Below, one piece after another: positions 1,269-17,440 of a DNA stretch of 44,462 nucleotides. How positions within the stretch are numbered: the stretch's first letter is position 1; the number at the start of each line of letters is the position of its first letter. Position numbers and translations under genes: made by a program. Below the pieces are notes generated by a model. It had not been told where the DNA came from. It saw nothing but the letters and a program-made list of their open reading frames with translations, and ran no database searches. Source of the DNA: Nitrospirota bacterium (GTDB taxonomy: Bacteria > Nitrospirota > Thermodesulfovibrionia > UBA6902 > DSMQ01); contig JACRGX010000008.1 of NCBI GenBank assembly GCA_016212185.1, forward strand, positions 1 through 44,462, read 5' to 3'.

Positions 1269-3263
1269 ATGCAATCAGATTCACAAGCGGTTAACATTAA
1301 GACAGCATTTCCGTTTAACCCAATCTTTCATCTCATACTGATTGCTGTTATCGGTCTGCTTGCTTACTCCAATACCCTTAATGCTCCATTTTATTTTGAT
1401 GACGCATTCAACATTGTAGAAAATCCTATTATCAAAGACCTTCAATATTTTGCAGAACCTTCAAAGGCAAAAGAATTTCCCTTGTACAACACTTTTAAAA
1501 ACCGCTTTATAGGCTATCTCGCTTTTGCACTAAATTATAGACTGCACGGTCTTGATGTCACAGGTTATCATATCGTCAACCTCTCAATCCATATCATAAA
1601 CGCACTGCTTGTGTACTGGCTTGTGCTGCTGACATTCTTTAGAGTGGCAAAGGGACAAAGGGACAAAGTGGCAGAGGGGCAGGATTCACTGTCAACGGTT
1701 AACGGTCAACAGTCAATAAACTTAATTGCCCTTTTCTCCGCCCTTATCTTTATCTCTCATCCTATTCAGACGCAGGCAGTCACTTACATTGTCCAGAGGT
1801 TTACATCCCTTGCAACAATGTTTTATCTCCTAAGTCTGGTGATGTATGTGAAATTCAGAACTCAGAACATAGAGCACAGAACACAGAACACAGACAAAAG
1901 GCAAAAAATCTTTAGTCTGTCATCTGTGTTCTGGTATCTGGGCTCTGTCCTTTCTGCTGTCCTTGCCATGAAAACTAAGGAAATTGCCTTCACCCTCCCT
2001 ATAATCATTGTCCTTTATGAATTTGTTTTTTTCTCTCCAAATTCGCAGGCTAAAGCCTGCGGCTACGCCTCACGCCTCACACTTTACGCCTTACGTTTTC
2101 TCTATCTTATCCCTTTTCTCCTCACCCTGCTCATCATCCCATTAGGCATTATTGACTTCAGTAAAAGCACTGAAGATTTGATTGAAAGTATTAGTGAAAC
2201 AACAAAAGTCCAAGTTGTTACCATATCAAGGTGGGAATACTTTTTTACACAGTCAAGGGTAATCGTCACTTATATAAGACTACTATTTTCCCCTTTGAAC
2301 CAAAACCTTGACTATGACTATCCAATATATAACTCATTTCTAAATCCAAACGTGTTCCTGTCGTTTCTGCTTTTATTGTCTATTCTCGGACTTGCCGTTT
2401 ATCTATTTTATTATTCAAAAAATCCCCTCTATGAGCCGTTGGCTCCGAGTCATAGGCCTCTATCCCTGCCTACCGGACAGGCAGGCCCCTTTGACAAAGG
2501 GGGAATAAAAGGGGGTCGTTCACCGTTCACCGTTCACTGTTCACTGTTCACTGTTCACTATTTACGCCTCACCGCCTTCGGCCTTTTCTGGTTCTTCATA
2601 ACCCTGTCTGTTGAATCAAGCTTTATACCGATTGTGGATGTAATTTTTGAGCATAGAGTTTATCTGCCAAGCATAGGGTTAATAATTGCCTTTGTCTCAG
2701 CCGTTTTTTATTTTAGTCCTTATCTTTCATCCTTCAACCTTCAACCTTCATCCTTTCTTTCTCATCACGCATCACGCATTACGGTCTTACTGCTTGCTGC
2801 TGTAGTTCTTTCCCTTTCCATCGCCGCTTATCAGAGAAATGCCGTATGGCAGGATAAGGTAAAGTTATGGGAGGATGTGATAAGAAAAAGCCCTGGGAAA
2901 GCAAGAGGATATTTTCAACTCGGGGTGGCTTACTTTGATAAAAACGATCTAACCGCAGCTACTAAATACTTTGAAATATCAAAACAAAGTTTTTTTATGA
3001 TTGAGTCTCATGCTTATCTTGGCAATATTTATGCACTCATGGGACAGTATAACAAAGCAATTAATAATTTTACAATTGCTATAGATAAATACGATTACGC
3101 AGTATGGAAGGACAAGACAAACAACGCATACCTTTATTATAATCGCGGGCAAGCTTATTACGAGTCAGGGGCGATTAATAACGCAAAGGAAGACTTCACC
3201 ATTGCCTGCCAGAAAGGTTTTGATAGAGGCTGTTATAAGTTAAGCGGGTTAACCGTAAAATGA
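1269..3263 (+). CDS. TMTC-like polytopic membrane protein with TPRs
   Basis: Full-length paralogue of the upstream gene, about 664 residues. I place the start at 1269 because GAGGG lies five bases before that ATG; an in-frame ATG at 1257 is possible. Early in the protein the motif YFDDAFNIVENP follows the first membrane segment; an acidic pair here is typical of GT-C transferases that use lipid-linked sugar donors. Many hydrophobic segments follow, then about three TPR-like repeats (from GYFQLGVAYF on). The protein resembles TMTC proteins in order and motifs, but acceptor and donor are unknown. It starts 15 bases after the upstream stop, so the two are probably cotranscribed. Two loops contain repeat-derived insertions absent from a minimal version of the fold (around 2040-2065 and 2440-2565). 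Confidence 0.75.
   Translation: MQSDSQAVNIKTAFPFNPIFHLILIAVIGLLAYSNTLNAPFYFDDAFNIVENPIIKDLQYFAEPSKAKEFPLYNTFKNRFIGYLAFALNYRLHGLDVTGYHIVNLSIHIINALLVYWLVLLTFFRVAKGQRDKVAEGQDSLSTVNGQQSINLIALFSALIFISHPIQTQAVTYIVQRFTSLATMFYLLSLVMYVKFRTQNIEHRTQNTDKRQKIFSLSSVFWYLGSVLSAVLAMKTKEIAFTLPIIIVLYEFVFFSPNSQAKACGYASRLTLYALRFLYLIPFLLTLLIIPLGIIDFSKSTEDLIESISETTKVQVVTISRWEYFFTQSRVIVTYIRLLFSPLNQNLDYDYPIYNSFLNPNVFLSFLLLLSILGLAVYLFYYSKNPLYEPLAPSHRPLSLPTGQAGPFDKGGIKGGRSPFTVHCSLFTVHYLRLTAFGLFWFFITLSVESSFIPIVDVIFEHRVYLPSIGLIIAFVSAVFYFSPYLSSFNLQPSSFLSHHASRITVLLLAAVVLSLSIAAYQRNAVWQDKVKLWEDVIRKSPGKARGYFQLGVAYFDKNDLTAATKYFEISKQSFFMIESHAYLGNIYALMGQYNKAINNFTIAIDKYDYAVWKDKTNNAYLYYNRGQAYYESGAINNAKEDFTIACQKGFDRGCYKLSGLTVK
2466..2560. 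repeat. Composite in-frame repeat insert in TPR gene 2
   Basis: Three repeat kinds abut: the palindrome CTGCCTACCGGACAGGCAGG, a CCCCTTTGACAAAGGGGG palindrome (peptide PFDKGG), and a run of heptamer-like TTCACCG/TTCACTG units giving an FTVHCSLFTVHY peptide. All are read through in frame. Related FTVHC-type units form the LolA signal peptide near 21200. Confidence 0.8.
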
Positions 3264-3309
3264 CTGTTCCTATTAAAATATCTCCTATCCTCCAAATGAC
3301 AACAAGAGG

Positions 3310-3366
3310 GGCGGGGAAAATATAAAATCCTTCCTTGTTAAATTTCCCCGCATTTTACATTTTTAG
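3310..3366 (+). terminator. Likely intrinsic terminator after the TPR genes
   Basis: Perfect 9-bp arms GCGGGGAAA (3310-3318) and TTTCCCCGC (3342-3350) with a 23-base loop, followed by a T-rich tail ATTTTACATTTTTTT. The long loop lowers confidence; an attenuator for argG, which begins 43 bases later, is the alternative. Confidence 0.45.
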
Positions 3367-3408
3367 AACCTTTGTGATATGTTTATAAAATTCAGGGAGA
3401 AAACAAAT

Positions 3409-4611
3409 ATGAAGATTAATAAAATTGTTTTGGCTTATTCGGGCGGACTTGATACATCAGTTGCAATAAAGTGGCTTAAGGAGACTTACGGGTGCGAGGT
3501 TATTGCATTCTGCGCAGACTTAGGGCAGGAAGAGGAATTAAAAACAGTAAAAAGCAAGGCTCTTAAGACCGGCGCCTCAAAGGCTTATGTGGTTGACTTG
3601 AAGGAGGAGTTTGCAAAAAACTACATATTCCCCATGCTCCGGGCAGGCGCGGTTTATGAGGGAGCATATCTTCTGGGCACTTCAATCGCAAGGCCTCTTA
3701 TAGCCAAAGCGCAAATTGAAATAGCAAAAAAGGAAAATGCCGATGCAGTTGCGCACGGTGCAACGGGCAAGGGTAATGATCAGGCGCGCTTTGAGCTTAC
3801 TTACTATGCGCTTAAACCTGATATAAAAGTCATAGCTCCATGGAGGGAATGGTCGTTTAATTCAAGGGGGTCGCTGATAAATTATGCAAAGGCGCACTAT
3901 ATCCCCGTAACTGCCACCAAGGCAAAACCTTACAGCACTGACCGGAATCTTTTTCATATAAGTTATGAGGGCGGGATTTTAGAAGACCCGTGGGCAGAGC
4001 CGCCTGAAGACATGTTTACCCTGACTGCATCGCCTGAAAAGGCGCTGTTAAAGCCTGTGTATCTGGAGATCGGATACAAGGACGGCGACCCGGTATCGCT
4101 AAATGGAAAAAGGCTTTCCCCTGCATCCCTGCTTAAAGCCCTTAATTCAATTGCAGGAAGACACGGAATCGGCAGGCTTGATATTGTTGAAAACAGATTT
4201 GTAGGCATAAAATCACGCGGGGTTTATGAAACTCCGGGCGGGACCGTACTTCATACGGCACACAGGGCAATTGAGTCCATAACAATGGACCGGGAGGTAA
4301 TGCACCTAAGAGATTCACTGATGCCGAAATATGCGGAGCTTATATATTACGGCTACTGGTTTTCGCCGGAGAGAGAGGCGCTTCAGAATTTTATTGATAA
4401 ATCACAAAAGGGAGTTACAGGCGCCGTAAGGCTCAAACTCTACAAGGGGAACTGCACGGTAACCGGAAGAAAATCTCCGGTGTCTTTATACAAGCCTCAG
4501 CTTGCCACATTTGAGGCTGAACGGGTTTACAACCAGAAAGACGCAGAGGGCTTTATAAAGCTTAATGCGTTAAGGCTCAAAACAAGAAAATTTCAAAAAG
4601 GAAAAATCTGA
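3409..4611 (+). CDS. argG: Argininosuccinate synthase
   Basis: Catalyses ATP-dependent condensation of citrulline and aspartate to argininosuccinate, the penultimate step of arginine synthesis, in the cytoplasm. The N-terminal ATP pyrophosphatase loop [11 protein letters not shown] is intact, followed by [18 protein letters not shown], the [10 protein letters not shown] loop that contacts citrulline and aspartate, and [15 protein letters not shown]. Length from the chosen ATG is 400 residues, normal for the family. I prefer 3409 over the ATG at 3379 because AGGGAGA lies nine bases before it and because [13 protein letters not shown] is the usual beginning. No other arginine gene is in the window. 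Identification is secure. Confidence 0.97.
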
Positions 4612-4647
4612 AAGACTGTTATTAGTTATTGGTTATTAGTTATACGA

Positions 4648-4675
4648 TTAACAATTAACAAATAACGAATAACAT
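4648..4675 (+). promoter_or_regulatory. Candidate dprA promoter built from short tandem repeats
   Basis: TTAACA (4648-4653), 16-base spacer, TAACAT (4670-4675), then only seven bases to the dprA ATG. The region 4619-4680 is made of reiterated TTAGTTATTGG / AACAATAAC-like units, so the promoter seems to have arisen from repeat DNA. No Shine-Dalgarno is present. Confidence 0.45.
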
Positions 4676-4682
4676 TTTTGTT

Positions 4683-5801
4683 ATGTCTGACCTTAAATAC
4701 TGGCTTGCCCTCAATCTGTTGCCTGACATAGGCCCTTTTTATGCAAGGCGGCTTTTGTCTGCCTTTGGAAGCCCTGAGAATATTTTTCAGATGCCGGCTG
4801 GCGAGCTGAGAAAAATTGAAGGCATAGGCGAAAATAGGGCAAAAAGCATTGCCGGCTTCAGGCAGTGGGATGTTGTTGACAAAGAGATTAGTTACGCAAA
4901 AAAAAATAATGTAAAAATACTCCCCTTTAAAGACCCTCTGTATCCTGAGCGGCTGAGGCAGATACCAGACGCTCCGCTTTTGCTGTATGTTAAAGGCGAT
5001 CTTAGAGATGACGATAAGTACGCCATGGCAATAGTCGGCTCAAGGACTCCGACAGACTACGGGCTTCAGGTTGCCGAGAGGATAAGTTATAAACTTGCTG
5101 CATACGGGCTGACTGTTGTAAGCGGAATGGCAAGAGGCATAGACGGCGCATCGCACAAAGGGGCGCTGATGGCAGGCGGCAGGACGCTTGCAGTGCTCGG
5201 CTCAGGCATTGATGTGCCTTATCCCCTTGAAAACAAGGGGCTGATGAGGGCGCTCATGCCGTCCGGCGCTCTTATAAGCGAATTCCCGCTTGGGACTAAG
5301 CCCAATACAGGGAATTTTCCAAAGCGAAACCGCATAATAAGCGGGCTGTCTTTGGGCGTGCTTGTCATTGAGGCAGGTGTTGACAGCGGCTCTCTGATTA
5401 CTGTAGGGTATGCCCTTGAGCAGGGCAGAGAAGTCTTTGCCGTGCCCGGAAATATAACATCAAAGACTTCTAAGGGGACCAACGACCTTATAAAAAAGGG
5501 CGCCAAGCTCGTTGAGAACGCCGATGAAATCATTAATGAACTGGCGCCTCAGATTAAAGGCATTCTTAAAGAAACGCAGACAGAAGAAAGACAGCAGAAT
5601 ATTTCCGCTCCGGCGCCGCATATGACTGAGGCTGAAAAAAAAGTTTATAATATTCTGTGCAAGGGGCCAAAGCATATAGACGCAATCACAAGAGAAGTTA
5701 ATATCCCTGCGTCAGAGGCATTGTCTACACTGTTAAGCCTTGAACTTAAAGGCGCTGTAAGACAGATGGATGGAAAAAATTTTCTTGCCGCTAATTGCTG
5801 A
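4683..5801 (+). CDS. dprA: DNA-processing protein DprA (Smf)
   Basis: DprA binds incoming single-stranded DNA during natural transformation and loads RecA. The protein has an N-terminal helix-hairpin-helix part (PDIGPFYARRLLSAFG and GIGENRAKSIAG, residues 14-60), the Rossmann-like core with VGSRTPTDYG (about 118-127), SGMARGIDGASHKGAL (147-162), NFPKRNRIISG (211-221) and EAGVDSGSL, and a C-terminal winged-helix region. At 372 residues it is complete. The start has no Shine-Dalgarno; a -10-like box lies seven bases upstream, so the mRNA may be leaderless. It is followed 36 bases later by topA, a common neighbour. The type IV pilin at 35376 would fit a competence role, but no uptake genes are seen here. 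Confidence 0.96.
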   Translation: MSDLKYWLALNLLPDIGPFYARRLLSAFGSPENIFQMPAGELRKIEGIGENRAKSIAGFRQWDVVDKEISYAKKNNVKILPFKDPLYPERLRQIPDAPLLLYVKGDLRDDDKYAMAIVGSRTPTDYGLQVAERISYKLAAYGLTVVSGMARGIDGASHKGALMAGGRTLAVLGSGIDVPYPLENKGLMRALMPSGALISEFPLGTKPNTGNFPKRNRIISGLSLGVLVIEAGVDSGSLITVGYALEQGREVFAVPGNITSKTSKGTNDLIKKGAKLVENADEIINELAPQIKGILKETQTEERQQNISAPAPHMTEAEKKVYNILCKGPKHIDAITREVNIPASEALSTLLSLELKGAVRQMDGKNFLAANC

Positions 5802-8285: not shown

Positions 8286-11200
8286 ATGCAGAGAACAAAT
8301 CTTGACCTCACCTTTATAACCAACGAAGGCGGGCAGAGCCTTAAACAAAGGTTTGAGGTTCTTATCAAAGATACAAGGCTCTTTGACTGTCTTGTCGGTT
8401 ATTTTTATACAAGCGGTTTCCATGCCATTTATAGGTCGTTAGAAAATACCGATAAAATCAGGATCCTTATCGGCATAAGCACAAACAGGCAGACCTATGA
8501 TTTATTAAAAACTGCATCGCATGAAAACCAGCAAGCTCTTCAGTTCTCTCATTCGGAAACAAAGCAGGCGATTGAAGGTTTGGTGGAAAAAGAGATGGAG
8601 GATTCCGACGACAACCGGAAGGTGGAAGATGGCGTTGTAAAATTTATTGAATGGATTCGTGGCGGCAAATTGGAAATCAGGGCATACCCGTCACAAAATA
8701 TACATGCCAAACTTTACATTATGACCTTTGCTGAAGGCGACAGGGACGCCGGCAGAGTTATAACAGGCTCAAGCAATTTTACTGAGGCTGGTTTAATAGA
8801 TAATCTTGAATTTAATGTGGAACTCAAGAACCGCTCTGACTATGAATTTGCAAAAGATAAATTTGAACATCTCTGGAAAGATGCCGTTAATGTCAGTGAA
8901 AAATACATTGACACCATTGAAGGCAAAACATGGCTCAATCAAAATATTACTCCATATCAGCTATATCTGAAATGTCTCTATGAGTATTTCAAAGATGAGC
9001 TTAGCAGCTCTGCTGAGGTCTTTGCAAAATATCTCCCGCAGAATTTCAAAAGATTAGAGTATCAGGAGCAGGCGATACTTAACGCCAAAAAAATACTGGA
9101 GGAATATGGAGGCGTATTTATCTCCGATGTAGTAGGACTTGGCAAAACATATATCGCCGCGCTTCTTGCTGGACAGATAGACGGCAGGACCCTTGTAATT
9201 GCACCGCCTGTGCTTCTTGATAAAACAAACCCCGGCTCGTGGCCCAATGCCTTTTCCGATTTCAGAATACCGGCTGACTTTGAATCCATTGGCAAACTTC
9301 AAGACATACTGGATAAGGGAACGGACAAATATTCCAATATCATCATTGATGAGGCACACCGCTTTAGGACAGAAACAAACATCACCTATGAAATGCTTGC
9401 TGAGATATGCAGAAGCAAGCGTGTAATACTCGTTACCGCAACCCCGTACAACAACTCTCCTAAAGACATCCTGAGTCAGATTAAGCTCTTTCAGAAATCC
9501 AAAAAGAGCACTATCCCAAATCTGCCAGACCTTGAGGCATTTTTCGGAAGGCTTGAGAAGAAGCTTAAGGGACTTGACCGTCAGAAGGATTATCATGAAT
9601 ACATCAGGGTTGTAAAGGAGAATGCCCGTGAAATCCGGGATAAGGTGCTCAAATATCTGATGGTGCGGCGCACAAGAACAGAGATTACAAAATATTTTGC
9701 TGATGATCTTAAACATCAGAACCTTAAATTTCCAGAAGTTAAAAACCCTGAACCGCTATTTTATGAACTCAATGATATTGAAGATGAAATATTCAATAAG
9801 ACGATAGAACTTATTGTGCAAAAGTTTAAATATTCACGCTATACTCCTTTGCTGCCTGAATATTACAAAGGAGTAACTGACCAACCCACCAGATTAGCAC
9901 AGGAAAATATGGGCAAATTCATGAGGATCCTTCTTGTGAAGAGACTGGAAAGCAGCTTCTTTGCCTTTAAAAATTCAATCGACCGTTTCATTCATTCTTA
10001 TGAGATGTTTATCAAGGAATTTAAAAAAGGGAATGTGTATGTGAGTAAAAAACATACTAACAAAATTTTTGAGTTATTAGAAAATGATGATGATCAGGCG
10101 ATACAGCAATTAATTGATGAGAGGAAAGCCGACAAATACGATAGCAAGGAATTTACAGATGGGTTTATCAACGACCTGCAAAGCGATTCTGCAATTCTAA
10201 AACAGGTTAAGACCTTATGGCAGAAAGTTGATCGGGACCCAAAGCTGCTTACATTTCTGAATGCACTCTCCAAAAAACAAACCCTGAAACAAAACAAACT
10301 CATTATCTTTACCGAATCCAGGGAAACTGCCGAATATCTTACCAAAAATATAGAGAAGAGCTTTCCCGGCGAGAGTCTCTGTTTTTCAGGCGGCTCTGGG
10401 GAGGCTGTTCGCGACAAGGTGATTGAAAACTTTGACGCCAAAGCCCGGCATCCAAAAGATGATTACCGCATTTTGGTTTCAACCGAAGTCCTCTCTGAAG
10501 GCGTAAACCTGCATCGGTCCAATGTGGTAATTAATTATGACATACCATGGAACCCGACGCGTATGATGCAGAGGGTCGGACGCATCAATAGGATTGACAC
10601 AGAATTTGACAAAATTTATACCTTTAACTTTTTCCCGACAAAGCAGTCCAATGATCAGATAAAGCTTGAAGAGGCGGCAGAAGCAAAAATAAGCGCATTT
10701 CTTACTCTGCTTGGTGGCGATGCGGCGCTCCTGACAGAAGGCGAACCAGTGGGATCTCACGAACTCTTCAACAGACTAATATCCAATAAAGCGATCATAG
10801 GCGATGATGGAGACGATACCTCGGAGCTTAAATACCTTAAAGTAATAAAGGACTTGAGGGACAAAGACCCCGACACCTTTGAAAAAATAAAGAAGCTTCC
10901 GAAAAAGGCGCGGTCAGCCAAAAATCCCCCCATCCCCCCTTTAGTAAAGGGGGGCGAGGGGGGATTTCAGGATTCTCTTATAACCTATTTCCGCCGTGGA
11001 AAACTGCAAAAGTTCTTCATGGCAGGTGATACTAAAAACGCACAGGAACTTGATTTCATCTCTGCCGCCGCAATCCTTGAAAGCGGGTTTGAAAACAAAA
11101 GGCTTAAACTGCCGGAGAGGTTTTACGAACTTCTTGATATGAATAAAGGGGCATTTGTTTTTGCCACTACAGATGGAATGCCGGAAGCACATGGCAGAGC

Positions 11201-11294
11201 CGGGAGGGACAGCGCAGGCCGGATACTTGGAATCCTCAAGGCAACAATGAAGAACACAAAGCAGTTAACCGATGAGCAGGAGCTTTATTCTTAA
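8286..11294 (+). CDS. PLD-nuclease / SNF2-type helicase of a defence locus
   Basis: About 1002 residues. The N-terminal part carries a phospholipase-D-type half site: IHAKLYIM with H140 and K142, then GSSNFTEAGL, as in PLD nucleases. The superfamily 2 helicase core follows: Walker A VVGLGKTYIAA (GLGKT at 284-288), DEAH at 355-358, VTATPYNNS (motif III), IIFTESRETAEYL and the motif VI QRVGRINRID (from 762). PLD nucleases paired with helicases are known in restriction systems such as NgoAVII and CglI; here both are one chain. I chose ATG 8286; a TTG at 8271 is possible and neither has a clear Shine-Dalgarno. Near the C-terminus a palindrome is inserted in frame (10922-10967). The protein stops at DEQELYS, and the next frame seems to hold its natural C-terminus. 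Confidence 0.85.
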   Translation: MQRTNLDLTFITNEGGQSLKQRFEVLIKDTRLFDCLVGYFYTSGFHAIYRSLENTDKIRILIGISTNRQTYDLLKTASHENQQALQFSHSETKQAIEGLVEKEMEDSDDNRKVEDGVVKFIEWIRGGKLEIRAYPSQNIHAKLYIMTFAEGDRDAGRVITGSSNFTEAGLIDNLEFNVELKNRSDYEFAKDKFEHLWKDAVNVSEKYIDTIEGKTWLNQNITPYQLYLKCLYEYFKDELSSSAEVFAKYLPQNFKRLEYQEQAILNAKKILEEYGGVFISDVVGLGKTYIAALLAGQIDGRTLVIAPPVLLDKTNPGSWPNAFSDFRIPADFESIGKLQDILDKGTDKYSNIIIDEAHRFRTETNITYEMLAEICRSKRVILVTATPYNNSPKDILSQIKLFQKSKKSTIPNLPDLEAFFGRLEKKLKGLDRQKDYHEYIRVVKENAREIRDKVLKYLMVRRTRTEITKYFADDLKHQNLKFPEVKNPEPLFYELNDIEDEIFNKTIELIVQKFKYSRYTPLLPEYYKGVTDQPTRLAQENMGKFMRILLVKRLESSFFAFKNSIDRFIHSYEMFIKEFKKGNVYVSKKHTNKIFELLENDDDQAIQQLIDERKADKYDSKEFTDGFINDLQSDSAILKQVKTLWQKVDRDPKLLTFLNALSKKQTLKQNKLIIFTESRETAEYLTKNIEKSFPGESLCFSGGSGEAVRDKVIENFDAKARHPKDDYRILVSTEVLSEGVNLHRSNVVINYDIPWNPTRMMQRVGRINRIDTEFDKIYTFNFFPTKQSNDQIKLEEAAEAKISAFLTLLGGDAALLTEGEPVGSHELFNRLISNKAIIGDDGDDTSELKYLKVIKDLRDKDPDTFEKIKKLPKKARSAKNPPIPPLVKGGEGGFQDSLITYFRRGKLQKFFMAGDTKNAQELDFISAAAILESGFENKRLKLPERFYELLDMNKGAFVFATTDGMPEAHGRAGRDSAGRILGILKATMKNTKQLTDEQELYS
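10922..10967. repeat. In-frame palindrome in the helicase gene
   Basis: Near-perfect 46-base palindrome: AAATCCCCCC and CCCCCCTTTA arms answered by AAAGGGGGG and GGGGGGATTT. Read in frame as a PPIPPLVKGGEGGF peptide. The same PP-(I/L/F)-x-KGG peptide signature recurs in the methyltransferase gene and in TPR gene 2. Confidence 0.85.
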
Positions 11295-11523
11295 AAGGGT
11301 CTTCCTCCAGCTTGAAGAAGGCGGCATCCCCAAACAGACAGCCAAAGAGACGCTAAAGGCATTGGATGAGCTCAAAAAAGAAATAATGAACCCATTGAAA
11401 GTTCTGGCAGTTCTTCAAACGCAGATACCTGAGCGCTTTCTTTCAGGGCACTATGCAGAGCGCCATCCTCAATCCTTCAGCAAGAGAGAGGTAATATTAT
11501 CAATGTATTTGATAGGAGGATAG
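11272..11523 (+). CDS. Probable detached C-terminus of the helicase (frameshift) or small coupled protein
   Basis: An 83-residue frame overlapping the helicase end by 23 bases. Its sequence continues the helicase naturally: helicase ...LTDEQELY plus LKRVFLQLEEGG from this frame gives one smooth amphipathic segment, and only one T needs removing in TTTATTCTTAA near 11285-11294. The rest (NPLKVLAVLQTQIPERFL, then KREVILSMYLIGG) looks like a domain end rather than a free small protein. Alternatives: a real overlapping gene translated from ATG 11272 by coupling, programmed frameshifting, or a sequencing error. It ends two bases before the next gene, so no independent signals are visible. Confidence 0.6.
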   Translation: MSRSFILKRVFLQLEEGGIPKQTAKETLKALDELKKEIMNPLKVLAVLQTQIPERFLSGHYAERHPQSFSKREVILSMYLIGG

Positions 11524-11525
11524 AT

Positions 11526-12353
11526 ATGGAAGACACAAAAATAGCATTGTTTAAAGGCAGGAAAATCAGAAAGACACTCCATAATGATGAATGGTGGTTT
11601 GTTATTGTCGATGTCGTGGCAGCTTTAACTGACTCTTTACAGCCTGATGGATACCTTAAAGATATGCGGAGACGCGATCCGGAACTTTCAAAAGGGTGGG
11701 GGCAAATTGCCACCCCCCTTTTTATAAAGACTGAGGGCGGACAACAGAAAATTAACTGTGCCAATACCGAAGGGGTTTTCCGTATTATCCAGTCTATCCC
11801 TTCGCCCAAAGCAGAACCCTTCAAAAGATGGTTAGCAAAAGTCGGTTATGAACGAGTACAGGAAATAGAAAATCCTGAACTTGCCACCAAAAGAACAAGA
11901 ATGCTGTATAAACTCAAGGGCTATCCAGACGACTGGATTGAAAAAAGGATGCGCGGAATAGCTATCAGAGAAGAGCTGACTGATGAATGGAAAGAGCGGG
12001 GAGCAAAAGAAGAGAAGGACTATGAAATTCTGACTGCTGAGATATCCAAAGCCACTTTTGGAGTAACGCCGGGTGAATATAAGAATCTCAAGGGTTTAAA
12101 GCGTGAAAACCTGCGGGATCACATGGATGATTTTGAACTGATCTTTAACATGCTTGGTGAAAAATCCACCACAGAGATTCACCGCACGGAAGATTCCCAA
12201 GGCATAAGTAAATTGAAATCAGATGCCAAAGCCGGAGGGGATATTGCCGGCAATGCCAGAAAACAGCTTGAGAAGAGACTCGGCAGATCTGTTGTTACTA
12301 AAACCAATTTCCTGCAACAGCCTTCAAAGACTAAGAAACTACCCAATAAATAA
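11526..12353 (+). CDS. Bro-N (phage antirepressor-like) domain protein
   Basis: 275 residues. The N-terminus is a BRO-N domain: WWFVIVDVVAALTDS, then YLKDMRRRDPEL, CANTEGVFRIIQSIPSPKAEPFKRWLA. The C-terminal half has a conserved region ATFGVTPGEYKNLKGLKRENLRDHMDDFELIFNMLGE (shown in parts: ATFGVTPGEYKNLKGL, ENLRDHMDDFELIF), known in chromosomal Bro-N proteins and followed by a basic tail. GGAGG lies just before the start. It sits between the helicase fragment and the methyltransferase, one base from the latter, so it belongs to the operon. Bro-N proteins bind DNA; a regulatory or specificity role in this system is inference. Confidence 0.85.
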   Translation: MEDTKIALFKGRKIRKTLHNDEWWFVIVDVVAALTDSLQPDGYLKDMRRRDPELSKGWGQIATPLFIKTEGGQQKINCANTEGVFRIIQSIPSPKAEPFKRWLAKVGYERVQEIENPELATKRTRMLYKLKGYPDDWIEKRMRGIAIREELTDEWKERGAKEEKDYEILTAEISKATFGVTPGEYKNLKGLKRENLRDHMDDFELIFNMLGEKSTTEIHRTEDSQGISKLKSDAKAGGDIAGNARKQLEKRLGRSVVTKTNFLQQPSKTKKLPNK

Positions 12354-12354
12354 C

Positions 12355-15300
12355 ATGGATAAGCAACAGGCTCAGGATATTGTTAAAGAGACTTTTGAAA
12401 GTTCTTTTGATAAGGGCATGTTCACCGGCTTTATAAAAAATCTTCTGAACTCTATAGAAGACGCTCCATTTTCTTACAAAGGCAATCTCATACCTGACGC
12501 ATATGAGCAATATATAAGCACTCTTGAGCGCATCGGAAAATATTCTGCCGGTGATCATAAGATTGACATCCTTGTTGTAAAGCTCAAGAAAAAAACATCC
12601 ATTGAACGCGCCCGCACCATGCAGAGAAATTTTATCGCGTGGTACTTAAACGGCAGTCGCGGCGGCGAGATGAAAGACGCCGCCCTCGCAGCATTTGTGT
12701 CACCGAATGGAGAGGACTGGCGGTTCTCTCTGGTTAAGATGGACTACCGCTTTGAAGAAGGGAAAAACAGCAAGGTCAAAGTCAAAGAAGAATTTACCCC
12801 TGCACGCAGATGGTCTTTTCTGGTCGGCAAGAATGAAAATAGTCATACTGCACAAAGCAAGCTTTACCCGATTATTGCTGATGACGAGCACAAACCCACA
12901 CTTGCAGAGCTTGAAGAAACATTTAATATTGAGAAAGTCACCAAAGAGTTCTTTGAAAAATACCGCGACCTTTTTCTGCGGACTAAAGAAACTCTGGATG
13001 AAGTTGTTTCTGGAGATAAAAAAATCAAGGCAGATTTTGAAGCCAAGGGCGTTAACACCGTTGACTTTGCAAAGAAACTTTTGGGGCAAATCGTATTTCT
13101 CTATTTCTTGCAGAAAAAGGGATGGTTTGGAGTCAAAAGGGATACTGAGTGGGGAACCGGCACTAAACATTTCTTGAGGGAACTATTTGAGGGCAGGCAC
13201 GGCACATACACCAATTTCTTTAACGATATTTTAGAGCCTCTTTTTTACGAGGCGCTTCGCATTGACCGGAGCCATGATGATGGATATTACAGCCGCTTCA
13301 ACTGCAAAATCCCTTTCTTAAACGGCGGACTCTTTGACCCCATAAACAATTATGACTGGGTGCACACCGATATCATTCTACCGAATGAACTTTTCTCTAA
13401 TTCTTTCAAGACAAAAGAAGGTGATAAGGGCAATGGTATTTTGGACATCTTTGACCGTTACAATTTTACTGTCAAAGAGGACGAGCCGCTGGAAAAAGAA
13501 GTGGCTGTTGACCCTGAGATGTTAGGCAAAGTTTTTGAAAATCTGCTGGAAGTTAAAGACCGAAAATCCAAAGGCACCTACTACACACCGCGCGAAATTG
13601 TTCACTATATGTGCCGGCAGAGCCTTATCAGTTATCTGGCGACAGAACTATCTGATTGTCATTCCCCCTCATCTTCTTGTCATTCCTGCAAAGACGGGAA
13701 TCCAGTCCCTTCCAGAGAAGACATTGAAACCCTCATCAAATACGGCGAGCAGGTGGGCGAGAATGAGGCAACTGTCGTCGCCAAGGGAAGAGAGACGGAT
13801 ACTTATTATCATAAACTGCCGGAAAGAATCCGTCAGAATGCCGTGCTCATTGACGAAAAGCTTGCCAATATCAAAGTCTGCGATCCGGCAATCGGCTCAG
13901 GGGCTTTCCCTGTGGGCATGATGAGCGAGATTGTAAAGACAAGGCAGATACTGAGCGCTTATTTATCACCCTCCCCTTCCTCCCCTCCTATCAAGGGAGG
14001 GGAAATAGATGGGTCCCCTCTCCCCCGGCGGGAGAGGGCAAGGGAGAGGGGGGCTGAAAGAACTCCCTACAATTTCAAACGCGAGTGCATAGAAAAATCA
14101 CTCTACGGCGTGGACATCGATCCGGGCGCGGTAGAGATCGCCAAGCTCCGCCTGTGGCTGTCGCTGATGGTAGATGAGGAAGACATCAAGCAGATAAAGC
14201 CCTTGCCGAATCTGGATTATAAAATTGTCTGTGGCAATTCGCTGTTGGGTGTGAACCTGATGTTCCATCATCAGGCTTTGCTAAAGTTTGAAGACCTTAA
14301 AGGCAAATTCTTTGAAGAGACGAATCCGAAAAAGAAGACCGAATTTAAAAATGAGATTGATAACCTCATACGCGAGATCACAAATGATGACAAGCACTTT
14401 GATTTCAAGATTTATTTCAGTGAGATCTTTAACCCCTCTGTGTCCCCTCTTATTAAGGGGGGTGGTTTTGATATTGTCATAGCAAACCCGCCGTATGTGC
14501 GGCACGAAGCTATCAAAGATATGAAACCGGAGCTAAAAAAGCAATTTGGCGAGTTCTTCTGCGGTACGGCAGATATATATACCTATTTTTACCATCGGGG
14601 GCTGGATGTGCTCAAGTCCGATGGACATCTCTGCTTTATCGCGCCGAATAAGTTCATGCGTGCTGGATACGGCAAAAACACAAGGGCGCTGTTGGCTACC
14701 AAAGCAACGCCAAAAATTGTCATAGATTTTTGCGACTTGCCGATATTTGATGCGACTACTTATCCTTCGGTTTTACTCGTAGAAAAGCGAAAGCCGTCTG
14801 AACAAGACAAAACTTTCGCTGTAACATTTACAACAGAAGAACAACTTGCTCATATTGATGAAACCATTGGGATAATTGGTTTCGAGATGCCGATATTGGC
14901 GCTTAGGCCGGAAGGCTGGAATCTTGAACAACCTGAGGTCATAGCATTGATGGAGAAGCTACGCAAAGCCGGAATGCCGCTGGGCGAATATGTACATGGG
15001 AAATTTTATTATGGAATTAAGACTGGATTAAATGAAGCCTTCGTGATTGATTTAGATACGCGAAAGAGGCTGATAAAAGAAGATCCGAAATCAAATGAAC
15101 TTATCAAGCCGTGGCTGAGAGGACGGGACATTAAAAAGTGGACGGCTGAATGGGCAGGGCTGTATCTTATTAATATCCAAAGCAGTTCTAATCATCACTG
15201 GCCCTGGTCAGATGAGAAGGCAGAATCCAAAGCAAAAAAAATCTTCAAGGAAACTTACCCATCAATTCATGACCATCTGACACAGTGGAAAGATAAATTA

Positions 15301-15831
15301 CAGCAGAGAGACGATCAGGGGAAATTCTGGTGGGAGCTGCGGTCATGCGCTTATTATCAGGAATTCGAGCAGCCGAAGATAACCTGGGGTAATCTCGCTA
15401 CTGAACCAAAGTTTGCTATTGATGAAGAGGCATGTTACGTGAGTGCACCCGCCGTTATAATTCCAACAAATGACGTCTACCTTTTAGCTGTTCTCAATTC
15501 ACCGCTTTGCAAATGGTGGATCAGCATGCAAGCAGCAGTGCGTTCAGGCGGCTTTCTGGAATATAAACCAATGTATGTCGGAACAGTGCCAGTAGTTAAA
15601 ACCACCGATAAACAAAAAGTTTCTATAGTCACCCTTGTCAACCAAATCCTCACCGCCAAAAAACAACCCCCTTCATCCCCCTTTTCTAAGGGGGAATTAT
15701 CTAACGCCGACACCTCTCTGCCTGTGCGTTGCACGCAGACAGGCGCCCTCGAAAAACAAATCGACGAAATGGTCTACGCCCTCTACGGCCTTACGCCGGA
15801 AGAGATTGCGATTATTGAAGGACGAAAATGA
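12355..15831 (+). CDS. Eco57I/PglX-like N6-adenine DNA methyltransferase
   Basis: About 1158 residues starting one base after the Bro-N stop. Motifs: DPEMLGKVFENLLEV and GTYYTPREIVHYM before the catalytic core, SAM-binding motif I CDPAIGSGAFPVGM (D at about 510), LYGVDIDPGAVEIAKLRLWL, and the adenine-methylase motif NPPY (711-714). The C-terminal third resembles a TaqI-type specificity region (WLRGRDIKKW, then APAVIIPTNDVYLLAVLNSP). I see no unambiguous nuclease motif; HKIDILVVKLKK near the N-terminus is only weakly suggestive. With the PLD-helicase it could form a restriction-modification or BREX/DISARM-like system. The gene carries at least four in-frame repeat inserts, one ending only eight residues before NPPY. 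Confidence 0.88.
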   Translation: MDKQQAQDIVKETFESSFDKGMFTGFIKNLLNSIEDAPFSYKGNLIPDAYEQYISTLERIGKYSAGDHKIDILVVKLKKKTSIERARTMQRNFIAWYLNGSRGGEMKDAALAAFVSPNGEDWRFSLVKMDYRFEEGKNSKVKVKEEFTPARRWSFLVGKNENSHTAQSKLYPIIADDEHKPTLAELEETFNIEKVTKEFFEKYRDLFLRTKETLDEVVSGDKKIKADFEAKGVNTVDFAKKLLGQIVFLYFLQKKGWFGVKRDTEWGTGTKHFLRELFEGRHGTYTNFFNDILEPLFYEALRIDRSHDDGYYSRFNCKIPFLNGGLFDPINNYDWVHTDIILPNELFSNSFKTKEGDKGNGILDIFDRYNFTVKEDEPLEKEVAVDPEMLGKVFENLLEVKDRKSKGTYYTPREIVHYMCRQSLISYLATELSDCHSPSSSCHSCKDGNPVPSREDIETLIKYGEQVGENEATVVAKGRETDTYYHKLPERIRQNAVLIDEKLANIKVCDPAIGSGAFPVGMMSEIVKTRQILSAYLSPSPSSPPIKGGEIDGSPLPRRERARERGAERTPYNFKRECIEKSLYGVDIDPGAVEIAKLRLWLSLMVDEEDIKQIKPLPNLDYKIVCGNSLLGVNLMFHHQALLKFEDLKGKFFEETNPKKKTEFKNEIDNLIREITNDDKHFDFKIYFSEIFNPSVSPLIKGGGFDIVIANPPYVRHEAIKDMKPELKKQFGEFFCGTADIYTYFYHRGLDVLKSDGHLCFIAPNKFMRAGYGKNTRALLATKATPKIVIDFCDLPIFDATTYPSVLLVEKRKPSEQDKTFAVTFTTEEQLAHIDETIGIIGFEMPILALRPEGWNLEQPEVIALMEKLRKAGMPLGEYVHGKFYYGIKTGLNEAFVIDLDTRKRLIKEDPKSNELIKPWLRGRDIKKWTAEWAGLYLINIQSSSNHHWPWSDEKAESKAKKIFKETYPSIHDHLTQWKDKLQQRDDQGKFWWELRSCAYYQEFEQPKITWGNLATEPKFAIDEEACYVSAPAVIIPTNDVYLLAVLNSPLCKWWISMQAAVRSGGFLEYKPMYVGTVPVVKTTDKQKVSIVTLVNQILTAKKQPPSSPFSKGELSNADTSLPVRCTQTGALEKQIDEMVYALYGLTPEEIAIIEGRK
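13656..13707. repeat. In-frame GTCATTCC-type repeat in the methyltransferase
   Basis: Contains ATTGTCATTCCCCC and then GTCATTCCTGCAAAGACGG with GGGAATCCAG, the same family as the intergenic palindrome at 18250-18306. It encodes a cysteine- and serine-rich loop (CHSPSSSCHSCKDGNPV) out of character with the rest of the enzyme. Confidence 0.7.
13967..14053. repeat. Double in-frame palindrome in the methyltransferase
   Basis: Two palindromes back to back: CCCCTCCTATCAAGGGAGGGG and CCCTCTCCCCCGGCGGGAGAGGG (shown in part: CCCTCTCCC / GGGAGAGGG). Read as a SPPIKGGEIDGSPLPRRERA-like loop between motif I and the LYGVDIDP motif. A CCCTCTCCC / GGGAGAGGG hairpin also occurs between genes at 19588. Confidence 0.8.
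14431..14466. repeat. In-frame palindrome next to the NPPY catalytic motif
   Basis: CCCCTCTTATTAAGGGGGG palindrome encoding SPLIKGGGF, eight residues before the NPPY motif. Its tolerance so close to the active site is notable. Confidence 0.75.
15667..15744. repeat. Two in-frame palindromes near the methyltransferase C-terminus
   Basis: CCCCCTTTTCTAAGGGGG (peptide SPFSKGE) followed by CTGCCTGTGCGTTG / CACGCAGACAGG (peptide SLPVRCTQTGA). After them the protein returns to family-like sequence LEKQIDEMVYALYGLTPEE. Confidence 0.75.
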
Positions 15832-15853
15832 TATCTTTTACAAGGCAACCGCT

Positions 15854-16414
15854 ATGGCCCAATATTTAATATTCCCAATTTTCACGATCCCGTTTTATTT
15901 GCATAGTCCGAAACAATTCCAGAATTTACGCAATAAGGAGGCTAAAAAAGTTGCAGCCTCTTTTAAACGCAGTAGTGGTAAGTATTACGGAAAAAATCCA
16001 AAAGAACTTGAAAGAATAGTTTTAAGGGCCATAGAAAATAAATATCCATCTCCGATGTATTACAATGATATAGCTGGATTTATAGCTATTAAGATAGAAA
16101 ATCCTATAGAGTGTTATAGAGTTATAGCAGAAGTTTGGGGAATAAAGAACAGGCGATTTAAATCGAAGAAAATATTCCAGAACGTTTGGACGGAAAGAGA
16201 ATTTATTGATAAGGAAATGCTTAATGACCCTGTTAAATTTAATCTTGAGTTTTTTGAAGCAGTAAAAAAATTAATTAATAAGATCAAAAAAAATTATTTG
16301 TGTCCTAAAAAGTTTTATTTTTCCATGAAAGATTCTTTTCTTAATTTCGACTTCCTTAAATCATGTAATGTCGCTGGGTTTCTTAATAATCTGGGAAAAG
16401 ACTGGATATATTAG
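15854..16414 (+). CDS. Hypothetical protein, third gene of the defence operon
   Basis: 186 residues from ATG 15854, 22 bases after the methyltransferase stop. I do not recognise the family. The open frame extends upstream to 15635, but that part is the antisense-frame reading of methyltransferase and repeat DNA, so I reject it. The protein starts with a short hydrophobic stretch (YLIFPIFTIPFYL), is then basic and helical (LERIVLRAIENK, FFEAVKKLINKIKKN), and has no cysteine motif. It is AT-rich compared with topA or tsaB. The position suggests an accessory component; function unknown. Confidence 0.55.
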   Translation: MAQYLIFPIFTIPFYLHSPKQFQNLRNKEAKKVAASFKRSSGKYYGKNPKELERIVLRAIENKYPSPMYYNDIAGFIAIKIENPIECYRVIAEVWGIKNRRFKSKKIFQNVWTEREFIDKEMLNDPVKFNLEFFEAVKKLINKIKKNYLCPKKFYFSMKDSFLNFDFLKSCNVAGFLNNLGKDWIY

Positions 16415-16606: not shown

Positions 16607-16623
16607 GTTAACATTATGTTAAC
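16607..16623. promoter_or_regulatory. Palindrome over the toxin start codon, candidate antitoxin operator
   Basis: GTTAACATTATGTTAAC is a perfect 17-base palindrome: GTTAACAT, a central T, ATGTTAAC. The second arm contains the start codon itself. MqsA-type antitoxins autoregulate by binding palindromes at their operons; this is the best local candidate. Confidence 0.5.
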
Positions 16624-16939
16624 ATTTAAACGAGGCAATGAAAGCAACAAGCCTTATGCAAAATCTCAAGCAACACAGCTAATCAAATCAATTGCGCGGA
16701 ATGGCAGTGTAAGACCAACAAAGCATTCTAAACAAAGAATGCAGGAGCGGAATATCACGATGCAGGATGTTCTGTACGCATTCAGAAACGGCAGAGTTAT
16801 TAATGAGCCTGAACTGGATATAAGAACAAACCGCTGGAAATACAACATCACCGGAAACGGGATAGACGCCAAAAACATAACGGTAACAACTGATATAAAT
16901 GAAAAGGAGAATTTTATCCTCATTATTACCGTTTTTTAG
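16616..16939 (+). CDS. DUF4258 family protein, putative toxin
   Basis: 107 residues with AGGGAG eight bases before the ATG. The DUF4258 core is visible: KHSKQRMQERNITMQDVLYAF, then WKYNITGNGID, ITVTTDINE and a terminal ILIITVF, i.e. a small helix-plus-sheet fold like RelE/BrnT-type ribonucleases. Family knowledge: such proteins often precede a zinc-ribbon/HTH antitoxin of the MqsA kind, as here, twelve bases downstream. That pairing is the main support for calling it a toxin. RNase activity is inference; no catalytic residues are assigned. Confidence 0.75.
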   Translation: MLTFKRGNESNKPYAKSQATQLIKSIARNGSVRPTKHSKQRMQERNITMQDVLYAFRNGRVINEPELDIRTNRWKYNITGNGIDAKNITVTTDINEKENFILIITVF

Positions 16940-16951
16940 AAAGGGAGAAAA

Positions 16952-17440
16952 ATGAATTGCCCTGTATGTGGAAAAAAGACAATTAAGAAAAGCGCCCTGC
17001 ATCATTACACGGAATCCGGCTTGGACAATGTGTTCCTTGAGACGGATGTATATAAATGCAAATGCGGGGAAGTTATCCCGAATATCCCTAATATTTATGG
17101 TCTCCATGGACTAATTGCAAAAGACCTGGTCAGAAAAGATTCACCCTTGACAGGCAATGAATTAAAGTTCCTGAGGAAACAGATGAATCTGAAGGCAAAT
17201 GAATTAGCCCAAATACTCAGTGTTCACAAGGTAACAGTATCAAGGTGGGAAAATGAAGCGGAGAAGATCAGCATTGGCTATGATAAGCTGATACGGTTTT
17301 TGTACACGCAAATGCTTCAGGAAAAATGCAATAACATTGTAAAAATAGTGGCAGACATCAAAGAAATCCGCTCCGGCGCAAAACGCGAGAAAATAGTAAT
17401 CCCCCAAAAAGAAATGAGAGAAGCCATCTGCCATTTATAA
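16952..17440 (+). CDS. MqsA/YgiT-type zinc-ribbon HTH antitoxin
   Basis: 162 residues. The N-terminal zinc ribbon has CPVCGKK (residues 3-9) and a second pair KCKCGEVI; the C-terminal half is a helix-turn-helix of the Xre type: LTGNELKFLRKQMNL, ANELAQILSVHKVTVSRWENE. This two-domain order is that of MqsA, the antitoxin of MqsR. It binds DNA and neutralises the toxin in known pairs. AAAGGGAG precedes the start. The likely operator is the palindrome at 16607-16623. Confidence 0.85.
   Translation: MNCPVCGKKTIKKSALHHYTESGLDNVFLETDVYKCKCGEVIPNIPNIYGLHGLIAKDLVRKDSPLTGNELKFLRKQMNLKANELAQILSVHKVTVSRWENEAEKISIGYDKLIRFLYTQMLQEKCNNIVKIVADIKEIRSGAKREKIVIPQKEMREAICHL

Follow-up and report, generated by a model that had tools for sequence, protein, structure and literature searches.

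Type ISP restriction enzymes consist of one chain, and the type IV enzyme SauUSI likewise carries a PLD nuclease and a superfamily 2 (SF2) helicase in one chain. The BREX-related Type-2 BR systems comprise an HKD-helicase and an N6-adenine methyltransferase (N6-MTase), plus DUF499 and DUF3780 (PMC12839542). A locus with components of this kind is located on a 44-kb contig of a Nitrospirota bacterium (JACRGX010000008.1; 44,462 nucleotides, all of which were analyzed and are termed the window in the following); the source genome comprises 2.3 Mb in 103 contigs. On the plus strand, topA is followed by genes for a PLD-SNF2 helicase, a Bro-N protein, an N6-adenine methylase and an open reading frame (ORF) of 186 amino acids, then by a DUF4258/MqsA-type pair and tsaB.

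An earlier note on this DNA had interpreted the first four of these genes as one defence locus. The four genes were confirmed, on the same strand and at their positions (8286-16414), and one ORF of 83 amino acids (11272-11523) that had been overlooked was added to the gene list. The conserved unit, however, is well supported as a pair, i.e. the PLD-SNF2 helicase and the adenine methylase. As a whole, a two-gene, ATP-dependent, restriction-modification-like core with a guest slot, and with Bro-N as a DNA-binding guest, is considered a probable reading of the locus.

The helicase and methylase pair

Named bacterial and archaeal genomes were scanned and yielded 79 loci, and 95 loci were available after addition of those from related genomes and removal of duplicates (loci are cited by number as L, genomes as G); the sample represents the best 80 matches and is biased to near relatives. 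A methylase gene is located within 3.5 kb downstream of the helicase gene, on the same strand, in 69 of the 73 loci with at least 1.5 kb of downstream sequence, a linkage far above chance. The gap between the two genes is 150 bp or less in 34 of the 76 loci measured, with many pairs abutting or with overlapping start and stop codons, and none of the listed loci has helicase and methylase joined in one ORF. Among the hosts are Nitrospirota, Desulfobacterota, Verrucomicrobiota, Planctomycetota, Chloroflexota, Thermotogota, Omnitrophota, Patescibacteria-type groups and several archaea; named Nitrospirae and Thermodesulfovibrionia genomes contain near matches to the helicase. The conserved co-occurrence that had been envisaged for four families was borne out for helicase and methylase, but not for Bro-N and the 186-amino-acid gene. 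A description of the two-gene core was not found in a literature search of open-licence papers.

The helicase gene (8286-11294, plus strand) encodes 1,002 amino acids with the Pfam domains PLDc_2, SNF2-rel_dom and Helicase_C, which agrees with the earlier claim that nuclease and helicase form one chain, and is assigned by PADLOC to HKD+Snf2 (162 bits). In an alignment of 73 homologues, the PLD residues H140, K142, N164 and E175 are invariant in all 68 rows that cover them, as are Walker A (K287; 68 of 68 rows), D and E of the DEAH motif at residues 355-358 (71 of 71), and the helicase residues R763 and R766 (73 of 73). The H-K-N-E arrangement is that of BfiI-type nucleases.

The methylase gene (12355-15831, plus strand) encodes 1,158 amino acids (conserved length about 1,130) with Pfam Eco57I and TaqI_C matches, and is BrxX/CamA-like. 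The protein comprises an N-terminal alpha/beta domain (residues 1-190), a helical spacer from about residue 192, the methylase core with the motifs DPAIGSGAF (510-518) and NPPY (711-714), a swapped target-recognition domain (TRD; about 715-1090), and a conserved C-terminal tail; DPA.GSG and NPP are invariant in 33 of 33 homologues. The AlphaFold2 (AF2) model (predicted local distance difference test, pLDDT, 82) matches CamA (Z 34.4), BrxX (Z 28.9), MmeI (Z 27.8) and Type ISP enzymes (Z about 24.5), with the matches covering residues 194-1150 only, so that the N-terminal domain is barely probed by this comparison.

Sequence identity in the methylase core (residues 1-425) shows no correlation with that in the target-recognition region (730-1040; r = 0.03, 521 pairs). 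In alignment A3, all 11 pairs with a core identity of at least 75% have a TRD identity below 40%, and the window methylase and that of the distant locus L030 share 33% in the core and 68% in the TRD. Judged from these alignments, the specificity domains are swapped freely, the hallmark of diversifying selection on a restriction-modification system. The roles that had been assigned to the two proteins, with the PLD-helicase as the putative cutter and the methylase as the putative marker of DNA, are supported by the invariant catalytic motifs, the conserved linkage and the swapped specificity domains, and a two-gene, ATP-dependent, restriction-modification-like system is well supported as the predicted nature of the core.

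The helicase copy of the window reads as shortened. In nearly all relatives whose 3' end is intact, the frame of the helicase continues for about 76 residues (conserved length about 1,070 amino acids; open frames of relatives mostly 1,058-1,135), and this tail is found in the window as the separate ORF of 83 amino acids (11272-11523, plus strand), i.e. as a displaced C-terminus that relatives carry as an uninterrupted, in-frame part of the helicase; the helicase alignments stop at residue 1001, and that of the 83-amino-acid ORF begins one base further on, without a change of frame. In a DNA alignment with five relatives, a single extra T was located at position 11291 (plus or minus one; TTTATTCTTAAAAGG in the window versus TTTATCTTAAAAGG or variants in the relatives), which shifts the frame, and the window helicase therefore reads 1,002 amino acids. 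The extra T may be a real mutation or an assembly error, and the copy is truncated unless it is the latter. A programmed frameshift joining the two ORFs was considered and set aside, as the relatives are uninterrupted with one base less; inspection by eye revealed no known slippery site, and the difference was judged to be an indel or an assembly error.

Several further observations concern the methylase gene. Copies of its 3' end (about 75-150 bp; in the window a single copy, 15744-15821, plus strand, whose related DNA forms orphan copies in several sister loci) are found downstream of the methylase in L017 (G031, 1978-5611) as well as in L026, L031, L046, L066, L074, L107 and L117, with 85-95% DNA identity among most of the L017 and L026 copies. 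In L017 and several others, these copies alternate with modules such as DUF433/DUF5615, DUF4258/DUF2283, Bro-N, YhcG and SLFN, as if units of accessory gene plus tail had been joined by recombination at the tail. An interpretation of the orphan 3' ends as silent, spare specificity domains was dropped, since most hold the C-terminal tail only and no TRD. In-frame, repeat-like inserts (NPPIPPLVKGGEGGF-type peptides) are present in helicase and methylase of the window (10926-10964, about 13660-13700, 13966-14058, 14434-14466 and 15667-15741) and missing from many relatives; the one at 14441-14464 is an inverted repeat in the DNA. The methylase ORF of L025 (11776-15951) contains, at the same site as one of the repeat inserts of the window methylase, a long in-frame insert with MPNHVHLL that looks like a REP-associated transposase. 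In L015 (13935-14648), where helicase and Bro-N are intact, the methylase that follows them is a remnant of 237 amino acids in which the first residues are fused to the end of the TRD.

The guest slot and the Bro-N family

The gap between helicase and methylase exceeds 150 bp in 42 of the 76 loci and then usually holds one or two genes; a few of these gaps are without a recognisable gene. Loci with an empty slot include L048 and L106. The slot contents are SLFN_AlbA_2 (about 14 loci), Bro-N (5, including L015), MNT or MNT/HepT (4), NYN (3), PIN (3), Fic (2) and ORF6N (2), and further YhcG, Gp49/HigA (HigBA), TumE, GIY-YIG, DUF4160 and 23S_rRNA_IVP; most of these are known toxin-antitoxin or suicide/backup-effector families. 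On the helicase tree, the 15 classes of slot content need 35 changes versus a mean of 37 for shuffled labels; the sister locus of the window (L016) carries SLFN in the slot, and a near relative (L026) carries NYN. That the gene junction is a slot for exchangeable accessory genes, with Bro-N as an optional guest, is well supported. Embedded HEPN/MNT, PIN and Schlafen genes are known in BREX and BR loci as backup effectors, and Bro-N, Fic and NYN guests go unmentioned there (PMC12839542).

The Bro-N gene of the window (11526-12353, plus strand; 275 amino acids) is a slot guest with a full-length match (residues 1-270; 372.8 bits) to the PADLOC candidate PDC-S13, and is also matched by Pfam Bro-N. 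The family is present in 40 of 295 genomes of the phylum. Among 20 sites read in the phylum, which were high-scoring and not random, nine are in or beside CRISPR (clustered regularly interspaced short palindromic repeats) operons: the gene precedes cas3 in L153, L157, L158 and L162, is placed as cas4-BroN-cas1 in L164 and cas7-BroN-cas1 in L165, and is beside cas1e in L161, cas5c in L155, and a cas1-like piece (judged by eye) in L154. Restriction loci account for four sites: the gene order is mod-BroN-res in L166 and L156, Bro-N precedes hsdR in L170, and it follows a fragment of a specificity domain in L167. Three further sites adjoin RhuM, SLFN or YhcG, and the surroundings of the other four are ordinary. 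The copy in L162 (G000:C60:37939-38757), directly before cas3, is a second Bro-N gene of the window's own genome, with 60% identity.

Another 20 sites, mostly outside the phylum, include type III (L205, L209), type I (L208, L210, L222) and GmrSD (type IV; L206) restriction loci, with arrangements such as res-BroN-mod, hsdM-BroN, hsdS-BroN-hsdR and GmrSD; three adjoin RhuM, YhcG/Fic or ORF6N/YhcG, and in L216 a weak cas5-like match is nearby. The annotation of an Arcobacter cloacae plasmid (LMG 26153) reads cas7-cas5b-cas3-ATPase-cas4-BroN-cas1b-cas2; membership of its ATP-binding protein between cas3 and cas4 in the SLFN family was ruled out. On the Bro-N tree, the CRISPR-linked copies cluster more than shuffled labels. 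The sharing of this family by CRISPR operons (types I-B, I-C and I-E) and restriction operons (types I and III) suggests a common helper role. Among open-licence papers, none was found on PDC-S13 or on Bro-N inside CRISPR or restriction operons.

Predicted roles and rival explanations

The AF2 model of the Bro-N protein (pLDDT 86.6) matches DdrC of Deinococcus radiodurans (E 2e-6; Z 14.7 over 218 of 219 residues), with Z of 8.6 or less for other families. DdrC emerged from the fold comparison alone, as no sequence-level match of Bro-N to DdrC was found; when the Bro-N sequence was compared with those of solved structures, the one match was discarded as due to chance. DdrC binds single- and double-stranded DNA, shields DNA against nuclease attack, anneals strands and closes linear molecules into circles (PMC5436757). 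A weak resemblance to DinD of E. coli was detected for residues 145-254 of Bro-N. DinD is reported to modulate RecA filaments. It has the same length as the Bro-N protein and a Bro-N-type N-terminus. On plasmids, parA-parB is followed by a Bro-N or a DinD gene (L191 and L193, Chlorohelix; L195, Thiothrix), which hints at equivalent roles. Variability within the Bro-N family is highest at residues 40-80, approximately (11640-11770), between strongly conserved blocks, as if different targets were read.

For the core, we infer restriction activity and a division of labour in which the methylase would recognise a motif via its exchangeable specificity domain and methylate adenine on self DNA; at an unmethylated site, it would probably recruit or license the helicase, which would move along the DNA and cut with its PLD domain, probably as a dimer, given one HKD-type site per chain. 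The core would thus resemble a Type ISP enzyme split in two proteins, with PLD replacing the Mrr-type nuclease. The systems that host Bro-N all unwind and cut DNA, and it is therefore proposed that Bro-N binds the products: as a DdrC/DinD-like protein, it may hold nicked, broken or single-stranded DNA from helicase-nuclease immunity, and would thereby block repair of the invader or limit damage to self. Such binding would explain the placement beside Cas3, HsdR, type III Res and the PLD-helicase. The wider proposal, possible though not the likelier outcome, is that Bro-N may be a DdrC-like general partner of DNA-cutting immunity, which would bind the breaks or single strands produced by Cas3, HsdR, type III Res and PLD-helicases and would be exchangeable between CRISPR and restriction systems as a guest gene.

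In the four-component interpretation, nuclease-helicase, Bro-N, methylase and 186-amino-acid protein act jointly, with Bro-N indispensable as a DNA sensor or adaptor. The four genes adjoin one another on one strand of the window, and Bro-N is also immediately next to the methylase in L017 and L052; nevertheless, the interpretation is very unlikely. Bro-N as a built-in component is not supported, since it occupies only five of the sampled slots, the sister loci carry other genes (in the nearest ones SLFN or NYN) or none, and the family is found also in unrelated immune operons. The 186-amino-acid ORF (15854-16414, plus strand), which had likewise been regarded as a component, has no match in PADLOC, Pfam or NCBIfam, no homologue at any sister locus, and a single match (E 6.5e-4) in 294 other genomes of the phylum, and was placed outside the conserved system. 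The four genes run in one direction between topA and tsaB, as had been described; a DUF4258 protein and an MqsA-type antitoxin (16616-17440, plus strand), a neighbouring toxin-antitoxin pair outside the core, separate the 186-amino-acid gene from tsaB. Alternatively, the methylase might be a self-sufficient Type IIG/IIL enzyme that cuts via its N-terminal domain, with the PLD-helicase as a separate Type IV-like enzyme. PADLOC indeed assigns the methylase to REase_MTase_IIG (1183.5 bits), and the earlier view that it lacks a visible nuclease is correct by motifs only, as the model reveals the extra alpha/beta domain (residues 1-190), with alternating helices and strands, in the position that the nuclease occupies in enzymes of the MmeI type. 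There are no conserved D...(D/E)xK residues in this domain among 33 homologues, however, its conserved polar residues being mainly R, S, T and K, and the methylase accompanies the PLD-helicase in 69 of 73 loci, and hence this alternative appears unlikely. The N-terminal domain is probably not the nuclease, and the lack of the D...(D/E)xK residues makes the PLD domain the likely cutter.

Two other explanations concern Bro-N itself. It might regulate the host operon or invading phages, i.e. act as an antirepressor-like transcription factor rather than as a partner at DNA breaks: Bro-N domains are common in phage antirepressors, a viral structure library returned Bro-N and repressor-domain proteins, and the variable residues 40-80 are as might be expected of a sequence reader. 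The full-length DdrC fold match is nevertheless well above the matches of the N-terminal part only (Z of 8.6 or less), the conserved part is the C-terminal half, and the same family is found in unrelated operons; a regulator is possible, though not the likelier outcome. A selfish or addiction element that has settled in immune islands, without a functional tie to the nucleases, would account for the copies beside RhuM, YhcG, SLFN and MNT/HepT genes, for those after parAB on plasmids, and for the ordinary surroundings of half of the sites sampled outside the phylum. This appears rather doubtful, as the gene is placed inside operons between essential partners (cas4/cas1, res/mod, hsdS/hsdR) that remain unbroken, and as the CRISPR-linked copies cluster on the tree beyond shuffled labels.

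Several points weigh against the reading of a two-gene core with Bro-N as a DNA-binding guest. The DdrC match concerns a predicted model, with 10% sequence identity and a root-mean-square deviation of 11.7 Å (domain shift or error), and the similarity to DinD is weak (hhalign E 1e-3), without an NCBIfam DinD match. The immune association of Bro-N is not absolute, with 10 of the 20 sites outside the phylum sample in ordinary surroundings; one Altiarchaeales genome of 1.4 Mb (G364) has nine Bro-N matches, and the five that were read (L211-L215) are all beside ordinary genes. Close relatives are over-represented among the sampled loci, and the window helicase is frameshifted, so that this copy may be damaged or non-working.

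With the reading of a two-gene core and a guest slot, a supposed four-gene system is reduced to a minimal, widespread and directly testable pair, and the slot is shown to hold unrelated accessory genes in cores that are nearly identical. If Bro-N handles the DNA ends that CRISPR and restriction nucleases produce, otherwise unrelated immune systems would have this component in common, and it would offer a route to the fate of cut phage DNA and to how cells survive their own nucleases.

Comparison with known systems

The core shares with Type ISP enzymes (LlaGI, LlaBIII) the set of nuclease, helicase, helical spacer, methylase and target-recognition domain, and the methylase model aligns to 5ffj (Z 24.8) and 4xqk (Z 24.4); Type ISP enzymes have an Mrr-type nuclease, whereas two chains with PLD are predicted here. 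The target of SauUSI is modified DNA, and no methylase works with it, whereas a methylase partner is nearly obligatory here. In comparison with BREX, residues 192-1156 of the methylase model align with BrxX (BrxX/PglX family) from BrxX residue 1 (Z 28.9), but the extra N-terminal domain is additional, and the NCBIfam BREX models score far below cut-off. PglZ, BrxC and BrxL have no match among the locus proteins and 20 neighbouring proteins of the window, and the match to BrxHI reflects the shared helicase domain only. DISARM (DrmD, DrmC, DrmMI) also comprises an SNF2 helicase, a PLD nuclease and an adenine methylase, with 135.6 bits for the DrmD profile; here, however, PLD is fused to the helicase, and all DISARM models are far below cut-off. 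Neither DrmB (DUF1998) nor DrmA was found among the locus proteins and the scanned window proteins, a weak DrmA match being to the helicase domain of the PLD protein. The absence of DUF1998, PglZ and BrxL that the earlier note had reported was thus reproduced for the locus and its 20 neighbours.

The Bro-N protein has, like DdrC, a Bro-N-like winged domain and a C-terminal helical bundle, in a predicted fold over nearly the full length. It is a full-length member of PDC-S13, which PADLOC lists as a single-gene candidate only.

The Type-2 BR systems, likewise among the closest known systems, share the N-terminal HKD/PLD nuclease fused to a Swi2/Snf2 helicase, the N6-adenine methylase, and embedded HEPN/MNT, PIN and Schlafen genes. 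The resemblance to them is incomplete, as the locus has neither a DUF499 ATPase nor DUF3780, and two genes suffice; DUF499 (PF04465) is absent from the whole genome (with a positive control genome), and DUF3780 has no match among the locus proteins (the search was not genome-wide). Membership in DISARM, BREX or Type-2 BR was rejected, since the defining hallmark genes are missing. The locus is partly anticipated by the Type-2 BR systems, and its components are known to PADLOC; the recurrent placement of Bro-N inside CRISPR and restriction operons is shown here.

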